Source: an uncultured Algisphaera sp. (GTDB lineage: Bacteria; Planctomycetota; Phycisphaerae; Phycisphaerales; Phycisphaeraceae). From it: a DNA stretch of 36,211 nucleotides. Each line of letters opens with the position of its first letter. The first letter of the stretch is position 1. Location: assembly GCA_938015655.1 (NCBI GenBank), contig CALLPP010000023.1, positions 1-36,211 on the forward strand, written 5' to 3'. Positions 13,978 through 35,649 of the stretch are shown here, one piece after another. Under the pieces are notes generated by a model. The model saw nothing but the letters and a program-made list of their open reading frames with translations. It had not been told where the DNA came from and made no database searches. The position numbers were made by a program, and so were the translations under genes.

Positions 13978-15603
13978 ATGAAAGTCGACAGCTTCCTCTC
14001 TCATCACGGGCTGATCGAAAACCCGTTCGCCGCCGAAGAAGCACGCCTGGACGCAGTGTTCGCCCGGCTGTTTGAAACCAGGATGCACCATCCGGACCTG
14101 GACAAGATCATGGGCGACATCGCCCAGCCGTCTACCGCCGTGGTGTTCGGCGAAAAGGGCTCGGGCAAAACCGCAATTCGCCTGACCCTCGCCAAGGAAG
14201 TGGCGAGCCACAACCGCGCCCAAGACAACACCCACCCCGACAAGCCCGCCCGCACCGGCGAGCGTGTGCTGGTGGTGGCCTACGACGATTTCAACCCGGT
14301 ACTGGACAAGCTCACCCGCGCCGGCCACACCGACGCCGCCACGGTGATCCAGAACTTCCGGCTGGTGGACCACCAAGACGCGATCCTGGGCCACGCGGTG
14401 ACCAAACTCACCGACGCGTTGCTGAACGACGCCCCGGGCACCGACCTGCCCATGCCCCTGCCCAAAGAGAAGCCGCGCGTGCTCCGCAAGCGCCTCACCG
14501 CCCAGCAGCGCCTCGACATGGCCGTGCTGGCGGGATTGTACGACCAGCCGCCCTCGGGCATCACCCTGCCGCGCTGGAAAAAGCTCTGCAAAACCTTGCG
14601 GATCGGCTGGCGCTTGCCCCTGTCGTTCTGGCGGAACCTGGCCGTCGCCCTGATGCTCGTCACCGGCCTGCTGGCCCTGGGCTTCTGGTGGCTGGAAGGA
14701 CGCGCCCCGCAAGCCGTCGCCGGGGTCACCGCGAATCCGGGGGCCGGGGATCACCGCGGGGCCGACTGGTGGATGATCCCGACCCTGGGACTCTGCGCCG
14801 CCGCCGCGGTGGTGCTCTGGGTGTACTGGAGCGCAATGTTCTTCCGCACCTGGGGGCTGTCACGCAAAGTCGCTAAAGAGATGCCGGCGATCGGCCGCAC
14901 CGCGGGCACCCTCCGGGGTGTCTTCGGGCAGCTCTCGGGCCCCATGTTGGCCGGCCAGCCGCTTCCTCAGCACGGGACCGATGCCCAGAACTGCCGCGAC
15001 GCCCGCTACCAGCTGACCCGGCGCTTTGTCGGCGTGCTACAAAGCCTGGGCTACTCGGGCATGACCGTGCTGGTGGACCGGGTGGACGAGCCCACCGCGG
15101 TCGCCGGCGACGCGATGAAGATGCGCTCGCTGATCTGGCCCATGTTCGATAATAAGTTTTTGAAGCAAGAAGGCATCGGCCTCAAGCTGCTGCTACCCAT
15201 CGAACTCAGTTACCTGCTAAACAAAGAAGGCCCCGCGTTTTTCCAGGAAGCACGCCTGGACAAACAGAACATGATTGAGAAGCTCAGCTGGTCGGGCGCC
15301 ACGCTTTACGACCTGTGCTCGGCCCGGCTCAACGCCTGCGCCTCGGCCACCGGCAGCGAACCGCTGACCCTCACTTCGCTCTTTGACGAGAACGTCACCC
15401 GCCAGACGCTGATCGACGCCCTGGACCAAATGCACCAGCCGCGCGACGCGTTCAAGTTCCTCTACGGCGTGGTGCAAGAACACTGCCGCCTGCTGGCCGA
15501 TGACGCGGGCGACTTCCGCATCAACCAGCTCACGCTGGACACCGTGCGTCGGAACCAGAGCCAGCGAGTGCAAGAGCTTTACCGCGGACTCACCCCGGGT
15601 TAG
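13978..15603 (+). CDS. KAP-like membrane-anchored P-loop NTPase
   Basis: A 541-residue P-loop NTPase of unknown role. Walker A is GEKGSGKT (residues 58-65). A Walker B-like strand MTVLVDRVDEP (362-372) comes far later in the chain. Between them are two hydrophobic helices (about 219-239 and 265-288) separated by a short polar loop, so both nucleotide-binding parts face the cytoplasm. An NTPase domain split by a transmembrane hairpin is the arrangement of KAP-family NTPases; the Walker A context also resembles Sll1717-type ATPases. It starts at ATG 13978. It stands alone, divergent from trpE, with a palindromic repeat beginning four bases after its stop. Confidence 0.6.
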   Translation: MKVDSFLSHHGLIENPFAAEEARLDAVFARLFETRMHHPDLDKIMGDIAQPSTAVVFGEKGSGKTAIRLTLAKEVASHNRAQDNTHPDKPARTGERVLVVAYDDFNPVLDKLTRAGHTDAATVIQNFRLVDHQDAILGHAVTKLTDALLNDAPGTDLPMPLPKEKPRVLRKRLTAQQRLDMAVLAGLYDQPPSGITLPRWKKLCKTLRIGWRLPLSFWRNLAVALMLVTGLLALGFWWLEGRAPQAVAGVTANPGAGDHRGADWWMIPTLGLCAAAAVVLWVYWSAMFFRTWGLSRKVAKEMPAIGRTAGTLRGVFGQLSGPMLAGQPLPQHGTDAQNCRDARYQLTRRFVGVLQSLGYSGMTVLVDRVDEPTAVAGDAMKMRSLIWPMFDNKFLKQEGIGLKLLLPIELSYLLNKEGPAFFQEARLDKQNMIEKLSWSGATLYDLCSARLNACASATGSEPLTLTSLFDENVTRQTLIDALDQMHQPRDAFKFLYGVVQEHCRLLADDAGDFRINQLTLDTVRRNQSQRVQELYRGLTPG

Positions 15604-15607
15604 ACCA

Positions 15608-15719
15608 CCGCATCACCCGGTTTAACCACCGTGCCTTGCGGGAACGTGGCCCCCGGGGCGGCGGTTCCTAACGGGAAGCCTCTCCCATGGGCGGCAGCCG
15701 GTCAAACCATTCGATGCGC
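15608..15719 (+). repeat. Palindromic repeat family 1, copy A
   Basis: This is a 112-bp element starting four bases after the NTPase stop. Its left end (CCGCATC, four bases, GGTTTAACC) and right end read in reverse (GCGCATC, four bases, GGTTTGACC) are inverted repeats. The inner part has GTGCCTTGCGGGAACGTGG, shared with copy B. It is the shortest of the three copies. Confidence 0.75.
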
Positions 15720-16050
15720 CCCCTGTAAGACGGCGGCGACCAGCGGTTGCGGGTTAACCCGTATTAGGAGGTGACGTGGCGGGCGCCAACGGCCGTTTGT
15801 GCCCACCGCGCCCGATAATCAAGAGAATTTTTGGCCTGACAGAACACTCTAGGACGATGTCCAACCCCTGGTTGTGGGCCAAGGTTAAAGCGCGGTAACC
15901 TTCCGCAAACTAATCTCGAAAATGCGTGCCTCAACGCCTCGACCACATCGCCACCCTGCCGCCACCGGCACGGACCTCGGACCGCGCCCCGTCGGCCCGG
16001 CCCGCTGCCCCCAACGGGGTACCCTCAAATCGCTGTAAGGAGCCACTTCT
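15720..16050. other. Intergenic leader before the outer-membrane protein gene
   Basis: No gene is seen here. It holds a perfect palindrome, GGGTTAACCC (15751-15760), and the leader of the next gene. Its last part has the ribosome binding site described separately. No convincing -35/-10 pair was recognised. Confidence 0.5.
16036..16042 (+). promoter_or_regulatory. Ribosome binding site of the outer-membrane protein gene
   Basis: TAAGGAG, eight bases before ATG 16051. It fixes the start of the gene that follows. Confidence 0.8.
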
Positions 16051-22977: not shown

Positions 22978-23118
22978 CACTCATCTTCCCTTCAACGGGC
23001 CAAAAGGCGACGTTAAAAGCGAGAATTCGCACCATTCAACGCCTTGGGCCGGGGCCCGCGGCAGGGGAAGGTTGCGGTGACTTCAAAGGGCTCGTCCCTC
23101 GGTCACTCTGGATAAGCG
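22978..23118 (-). ncRNA. SAM-I (S-box) riboswitch aptamer
   Basis: The leader of the threonine-synthase-type gene. The 5' block (23118-23068 on the minus strand) has CGCTTATCCAGAGTGACC, GAGGGACGAGCCC, TTTGAAGTCACC, then GCAACC, in the order and spacing of the SAM-I consensus. P1 is CGCUUAUC (23118-23111) with GAUGAGUG (22985-22978). P2 is GUGAC with GUCAC around the GGGAC-GAGCCC part. GGTGCGAATTC (23033-23023) matches the conserved GGUGCUAAUUC. P4 is CUUUUAACG with CGUUGAAGG (22989-22997). S-box riboswitches turn methionine and SAM genes off when SAM is plentiful. The 420-bp gap between the flanking genes is thus mostly riboswitch leader. Confidence 0.85.
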
Positions 23119-30503: not shown

Positions 30504-30534
30504 CGCTCTTAAAACTTCACCAGTGATTAGAGCC

Positions 30535-30679
30535 CCACATCAAACGGTTTAACCGTCGTGCCTTGCGGGACGTGGTTCCCGCGGCGTTGGTTTTTATCGG
30601 CAACCCAAGGGGGTTCCTGCGTCAACCTCCTTGCGGGAACCACCTCCCGGGCCGCAGCCGGTCAAATCATTCGATGCGG
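30535..30679 (+). repeat. Palindromic repeat family 1, copy B
   Basis: A 145-bp element between two converging genes, 31 bp from one stop and 16 bp from the other. The outer ends are inverted (CCACATC, four bases, GGTTTAACC against CCGCATC, four bases, GATTTGACC). The inner arms hold GTGGTTCCCGC (30572-30582) and its exact complement GCGGGAACCAC (30633-30643). Nearly the whole element can fold on itself. Confidence 0.8.
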
Positions 30680-30695
30680 GGCCCTAGAAGCCTCC

Positions 30696-35216: not shown

Positions 35217-35427
35217 CACTTTTCTACTTGTTTAGGGAAAACCTGAAGTTGCTTCTCACTCGTCCCCTTCCCAGCCGAGGCGGGGCCAGCGCATCACATT
35301 CAATAAGCGCGGTTCGCCCGAATAACCGGCGAAGGTTGGGGCGTTCTTAAAACGGAAACAACATCGTTTGGGTCGAGAAAACGGCGTGCCGGCACCAAAT
35401 AATTCCCTCTTTACGCCGGCGAGGGTA
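35217..35427. other. Intergenic region upstream of the YrbL-like gene
   Basis: 211 bp with no gene seen and lower GC than the surroundings, like the adjoining YrbL-like gene. It should hold that gene's promoter, but no convincing hexamer pair was found. Palindrome copy C follows at 35428. Confidence 0.35.
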
Positions 35428-35576
35428 CCGCATCAAACTCTTTGACCGGCGGCCTCTCGCGGGATGAGATTCTCGCCAAAAAGCTCGAAGCAAGCGCCCC
35501 CCGAAGGGTTGCCGATGGAAACCGACGCCGCGGGAGATACGGCCCGCACGGCACGCGGTTCAACCATTGGATACGG
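35428..35576 (-). repeat. Palindromic repeat family 1, copy C
   Basis: A 149-bp element in the opposite orientation to copy B. Read on the minus strand it has CCGTATC, four bases, GGTTGAACC at one end and GGTCAAAGAGTTTGATGCGG at the other. Inside, CCCGCGGCGTCGGTTT and then CCATCGGCAACCC match the same part of copy B (CCCGCGGCGTTGGTTT, TTATCGGCAACCC). It ends 73 bp from the stop of the partial sulfatase. Confidence 0.78.
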
Positions 35577-35649
35577 CGCCCTCACCAACACCCCCGGCGG
35601 TCCGGCCGGTGTCCGCCCGACATCAGCATCACCGCCGTGCGGCCTCCGC

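Follow-up and report, generated by a model that had tools for sequence, protein, structure and literature searches.

The 36,211-nucleotide stretch of DNA analysed here, which we call the window, carries three copies of a palindromic sequence, raising the question of what kind of element they represent, how it moves and where in a genome it settles. The preliminary description of this locus had offered two possibilities, a MITE-like non-autonomous element or a structural repeat like REP.

The palindromic family in the window and its genome

The genome to which the window belongs (G000; 2.51 Mb in 219 contigs, ~78% complete) was searched for further members of the family. With copy B as the query, BLAST returned 54 matches, the full-length ones with E-values down to 1e-35, and the covariance model R1 recovered about 62 distinct copies in both orientations (top E-value 3e-52). 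The terminal pattern, allowing at most 3 mismatches, was found 103 times, versus 5 times for a reversed control pattern. The earlier claim of a dispersed palindromic family with three copies is thus borne out by both BLAST and the covariance model: all three copies are present and dozens more occur genome-wide, which rules out both a similarity at the level of shuffled sequence and an absence of further copies.

Alignment of the copies together with their flanks defined the ends of the family as YTAGAGCACCGCATCaAATnATYTRACC...GGTTRAATnATTTGATGCGGTGCTCTAR. A full copy of ~164 bp is a near-complete palindrome ending in YTAGAGC...GCTCTAR. Most G000 copies measure 154–165 bp, and a series of internally deleted forms with the same ends (~95, ~75 and 39 bp) accompanies them. 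Judged by the usual marks of MITEs, the elements are short, non-coding and numerous (about 62 copies of 39–194 bp in G000), and they have terminal inverted repeats, seen as near-perfect ends of ~30 bp within a palindrome that covers most of the length.

Rfam gave no relevant match, either in a gathering search of the window or in an E-value search of five loci, and the consensus of the window family had no match in plasmids and phages. A literature search, incomplete in coverage and not searchable by sequence, did not find the family described. Within that coverage the family is previously unlisted, although the kind of element, a MITE-like TA-flanked hairpin repeat, is already known. Separately, a scan for the 15-mer TTAGAGCACCGCATC across contigs of many genomes gave 109 chance-level matches, about nine of them from Poribacteria, seemingly above the share of these genomes.

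The three window copies belong to this genome-wide family, which occurs in both orientations, and share the ends YTAGAGCACCGCATC...GATGCGGTGCTCTAR (Table 1). Their location was described correctly but their extent was not, alignment with the flanks showing that each end had been set ~8 bases too short. Alignment also agreed with the observation that copy C is reversed relative to copies A and B. The copies contain no coding region, as had been noted, but the gene at 13978–15603 takes its stop from the TAG at the tip of copy A; in a frame scan of this plus-strand ORF, frame 0 scored best as coding (26.9). Copy B is flanked by convergent genes, with distances of 24 bp and 9 bp to their stops. 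Elsewhere, the window contains sulfatase and DUF5060 genes, which may point to a host in the Planctomycetota, as well as a SAM riboswitch at 22978–23118 on the minus strand (RF00162, 67.7 bits).

Table 1 Positions of the palindromic elements and their parts in the window
Feature	Position	Strand	Description	Evidence
Copy A	15600..15726	-	127 bp, central hairpin lost by internal deletion; 3' end supplies the stop of the 13978-15603 (+) gene	CM R1 78 bits, E 1.8e-18; alignment; frame scan
TAG at outermost end of copy A	15601..15603	+	Stop of upstream 541-aa ORF	ORF 13978-15603; sequence
Copy B	30527..30687	-	161 bp, full length	CM R1 162 bits, E 1.5e-41
Core hairpin of copy B	30577..30641	-	Conserved internal-loop module	CM R3 57 bits, E 2e-14
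5' terminal inverted repeat of copy B	30657..30687	-	CTAGGGCCCCGCATCGAATGATTTGACCGGC	Alignment
3' terminal inverted repeat of copy B	30527..30556	-	Ends GGTTAAACCGTTTGATGTGGGGCTCTAA	Alignment
Copy C	35420..35584	+	165 bp, full length, ends decayed	CM R1 143 bits, E 2.2e-36
Core hairpin of copy C	35468..35535	+		CM R3 27.6 bits, E 8.6e-6

Relatives in other genomes and the core hairpin

Whereas BLAST found no relatives of the window family across 60 related genomes, the covariance model uncovered two further sets of elements: a family in G005, a complete chromosome from a different genus within the host's family, and an older family in the same-genus relative G001. About 36 copies are present in G005, most of them 95–100% identical to the query copy, and the median pairwise identity (33 copies) is 95%; this family is a recent burst. 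The outer inverted repeats of the G005 and G001 elements are unlike those of the window family, but the length (~160 bp), the core and the ends YTAGAGC...GCTCTAR, or nearly these, are shared. When model R2 (full hairpin) was run over 397 genomes of the class, 46 of them, representing 44 genera, had the element at E ≤ 1e-4, and in many of these it was multi-copy. We conclude that the elements form a real, class-wide MITE-like superfamily, and two of its properties are notable: it often inserts into stop codons, and it has a conserved core specific to one strand. Both of these properties, like the spread over genera, go beyond what had been recognised at this locus.

Support for the fold comes from base pairs maintained despite sequence change. 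For the whole palindrome, compared over the G000 and G001 families, 84% of pairs are kept, versus 35–41% when the partner strand is slid, and 23 pairs have changed on both sides. For the core, 32 class-wide sequences were aligned by MAFFT, in which structure was not used. Of the cells in this alignment 92.7% are paired, versus 24–54% after sliding; both partners have changed in 16 of 19 pairs; and the covariation score is 0.618, versus at most 0.147 after sliding. These pair counts lean to the structure, since the core and its pairs were part of the model by which the homologues were collected. Between genera the outer inverted repeats vary and the stems of the core change in compensating fashion, while its internal loops stay; the unpaired parts CAAGGM, GAAGCAG, CGATGCA and RACGNNG are nearly fixed, a conservation that was partly selected for by the same search model. 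Columns 14 and 57 of the core, in which A stands opposite G in 26 sequences and C opposite A in 5, apparently form a non-standard pair.

One strand is the folding one, since G-U combinations exceed A-C combinations both in the core (37 versus 8, p = 1.5e-5) and in the whole element (121 versus 67). RNAalifold applied to the copies of one genome alone yielded no more than 18 pairs, because the copies decay, so that families from other genera were needed. The G005 copies were excluded from models R2 and R3, their core having been misaligned by MAFFT.

Target sites and stop codons

Most copies have YTA on one side and TAR on the opposite side, and in nearly all G005 copies the 3' TA is followed by A or G. 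Joining the flanks and keeping one TA reconstructs an empty site of the form YTAR, which is consistent with TA duplication, these sites being rebuilt in this way rather than seen as alleles. We then related the sites to genes called with a home-made codon model trained per genome, in a GC3-anchored version for G005. In G000 the TA fell within a TAA or TAG stop codon at 27 of 57 non-coding empty sites versus 28 of 239 background sites (Fisher p = 1.3e-8), and in G005 stop-codon placement was seen for 14 of 32 non-coding copies versus 11 of 51 (binomial p = 0.004, Fisher p = 0.03), the background being non-coding YTAR sites elsewhere, unweighted for accessibility or for the loss of promoter insertions. 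Class-wide, the frame ending on the TAG of the element (frame 0) was the longest at 12 of 19 ends, a count made by hand from 25 loci and covering ends whose inbound frame stays open over 100 codons or more.

The element starts with TA-G, so its insertion into TAA or TAG leaves a TAG in place, and the gene is not lengthened. Two conserved genes among those concerned, named frr and dnaA from recognisable sequence, have the same terminal residue in G001, where the element is absent; judging from this comparison, their stop codons look ancestral and the genes do not appear to have been truncated by the element. There is precedent for the supply of stop codons by repeats in Streptococcus pneumoniae, where 36 genes have their 3'-terminal stop codon supplied by a BOX element, with no evident truncation (PMC3049150), although BOX differs from the window family in its modular boxA/B/C design and the two are likened by description, not by sequence.

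Copies between convergent genes account for 26 of 62 in G000 and 15 of 33 in G005, and those between divergent genes are rarer (9 of 62 in G000). At two G000 loci, L037 (G000:C7:4916) and L195 (G000:C89:14265), the element lies in a TTAA common to the stops of two convergent genes, so that a single element terminates both.

The nature of the element, its proposed mobilisation and its known counterparts

The MITE-like reading offered in the preliminary description is supported by the shortness of the copies, their non-coding nature and inverted repeats, their occurrence in both orientations, the YTAR/TA target, the deletion series and the burst of the related family in G005. We therefore consider that the copies are probably non-autonomous MITE-like mobile elements, moved in trans, for which stop codons are safe landing sites and the folded strand serves their own spread. 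A transposase recognising the inverted repeats at the ends would move the elements in trans and duplicate TA; presumably it would be IS630- or IS5-like, the kind that duplicates TA. Stop codons would be a safe and tolerated landing place because insertion there is neutral. The folded strand, as RNA or single-stranded DNA, would be needed for the spread of the element itself rather than by the adjoining host gene, given that the copies of one genome show near-even decay and are found in both orientations.

A transposase with the same ends was searched for and none was found. The IS630 (PF13358), DDE_Tnp_1 (PF01609) and Y1 (PF01797) genes of G000 do not carry these ends. The only IS630-type gene found there (L189, G000:C97:242-649), which is apparently frameshift-split, has ends of about TACGCATYCCA, unlike the repeats studied here, and the repeats on either side of the single Y1 (RAYT-like) gene are unrelated ones of the AAAAAGGTGTCAGGAACC type. 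Half-repeats picked out as candidates in G000 and G005 turned out to be short derivatives or chance. At BLAST sensitivity, neither G000 (78% complete) nor the complete G005 genome yielded an autonomous relative sharing these ends, and no longer element carrying these repeats was found in G005. The terminal repeats of four other families yielded no convincing insertion sequence in plasmids, and the core pattern had no match in viral contigs. We keep the label 'MITE-like' because no autonomous relative was found, and short shared ends could escape BLAST. As a side observation, the RAYT-like Y1 gene (L259 1410-2180) and a DDE_Tnp_1 gene (L257 127-1872) have a common flanking inverted repeat, AAAGGTGTCAGGAAC, which suggests a further dispersed repeat family in G000.

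The stop-codon excess could in principle be a by-product of where TA survives when a genome is GC-rich; the target would then have no feature other than YTAR, and the excess would play no part in the element's biology. TA is indeed rare in these genomes, and TAA and TAG make up 12% (G000) and 22% (G005) of non-coding YTAR sites, yet the observed shares of 47% and 44% exceed these backgrounds; we regard this account, which concerns the niche only and is compatible with MITE-like elements, as rather unlikely. A different role would fall to the stop codons if the element were a host-serving RNA at mRNA 3' ends, acting as a terminator, stabiliser or RNase site and selected there. Such an RNA would fit the stop-codon and convergent-gap placement and the strong fold specific to one strand, and ERIC has been reported to affect the stability of upstream mRNA (PMC2229807). 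However, relative to the neighbouring upstream gene the folding strand shows no preference for the sense orientation (21 ends sense versus 23 not in G000; 6 versus 8 in G005, hand-read), the G000 copies have decayed to a median pairwise identity of 71%, and the conservation of their core loops exceeds that of the remaining element only slightly and without significance, the conserved end CTCTAR leaves no U-tract 3' of the stem, and the same-genus orthologues examined are without the element. On these grounds, we judge a host function to be distinctly improbable. The near-even decay within a genome suggests that selection favours spreading and not individual copies; each copy may be close to neutral once inserted, and the structure would matter to the spreading lineage.

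Least probable among the alternatives, and in our view very unlikely, is a single-strand mode of transposition (HUH/Y1, REP- or IS200-like), in which a RAYT-type enzyme would cut and paste the hairpin strand and the flanking YTA would be its cleavage site. A fold specific to one strand, with conserved unpaired loops, would suit such an enzyme, and a Y1 transposase gene does exist in G000; set against this are the foreign repeats that flank this gene, the lack of a GTAG tag, and the two-sided YTAR target evident from the G005 copies, which single-strand insertion would not need. The suggestion that the family is a structural repeat like REP fits only in part. REPs, the repeats of the REP/RAYT system, are likewise extragenic palindromes scattered through genomes and presumably mobilised in trans, and they have been reported from Planctomycetes as well (PMC3733652), but they measure 20–40 bp, as opposed to ~160 bp here, and carry GTAG or CGTC tags, whereas the ends of the window family are YTAG with Y = C or T. 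Membership among the REPs was rejected on the tag, the length and the other repeats around the RAYT-like gene.

The MITE-like elements described here also have close counterparts among the short TA-flanked hairpin-forming repeats that include ERIC, Correia and RUP (PMC2229807, PMC2759123). ERIC (also IRU or RU-1) of enterobacteria is a 127 bp imperfect palindrome with terminal TA, TA duplication, intergenic placement and no known transposase (PMC2759123, PMC2229807). At the position of the outer core loop, the ERIC consensus carries GCAAGGCGG...GCCAACGCAGC (p = 0.001–0.002 versus structure-keeping shuffles), and single ERIC copies gave p-values of 0.004 and 0.026 for this module, aligned elsewhere than in the consensus. 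ERIC differs in being without GAAGCAG and CGATGCA and in its terminal sequences, and models R2 and R3 did not match it significantly (E-values of 0.84 and 0.53). Correia (NEMIS) elements of Neisseria, which come in two sizes (107 and 155 bp), have inverted repeats, duplicate TA and form long RNA hairpins (PMC2229807). The Correia copy compared carries CAAGGCGGCGAAGC...GCAACGCCG (p = 0.0004–0.001 versus structure-keeping shuffles), but its inner part and terminal repeats are unlike those of the window family, and its score with model R3 (6.2 bits) was not significant. No match to the outer loop module was found in the RU-2 and RU-3 repeats. RUP of S. pneumoniae resembles the window family in size (107 bp) and TA target, and trans mobilisation by IS630-Spn1 has been proposed for it (PMC2229807); it differs in that an insertion sequence with matching ends is known, while none was found for the window family.

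From these sequence comparisons, the outer loop module common to ERIC and Correia may be taken as a lead to a common superfamily, not as proof of one. That ERIC, Correia and window-type elements form one bacteria-wide superfamily of TA-flanked hairpins, in which a conserved single-strand loop core is combined with lineage-varying terminal repeats and read as a folded strand by one shared mechanism, is a tentative idea that we consider doubtful.

To our knowledge, the way in which ERIC and other small hairpin repeats of bacteria are mobilised has been an open question since about 1990. The present elements offer a concrete handle on it, in the form of a class-wide family that has recently burst in a single complete genome, a clear insertion rule (TA, frequently within a stop codon) and fixed core loops combined with changing terminal repeats, and the core can be used for searching, for mutation and as bait. 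They also suggest that selection on such repeats can work on the spreading lineage rather than on single copies.

A second hairpin family, of ~162 bp and with ends CTAGCAGGCCGCTGCAGAACC, was observed in G005 at four loci (L319, L325, L299 and L310; G005:C1:2747781, 717053, 836530 and 511250). Three of its four copies adjoin a copy of the first family, with one YTAG in common, and its outer loop (AGGA...GACGAAG) resembles the core module minus GAAGCAG.
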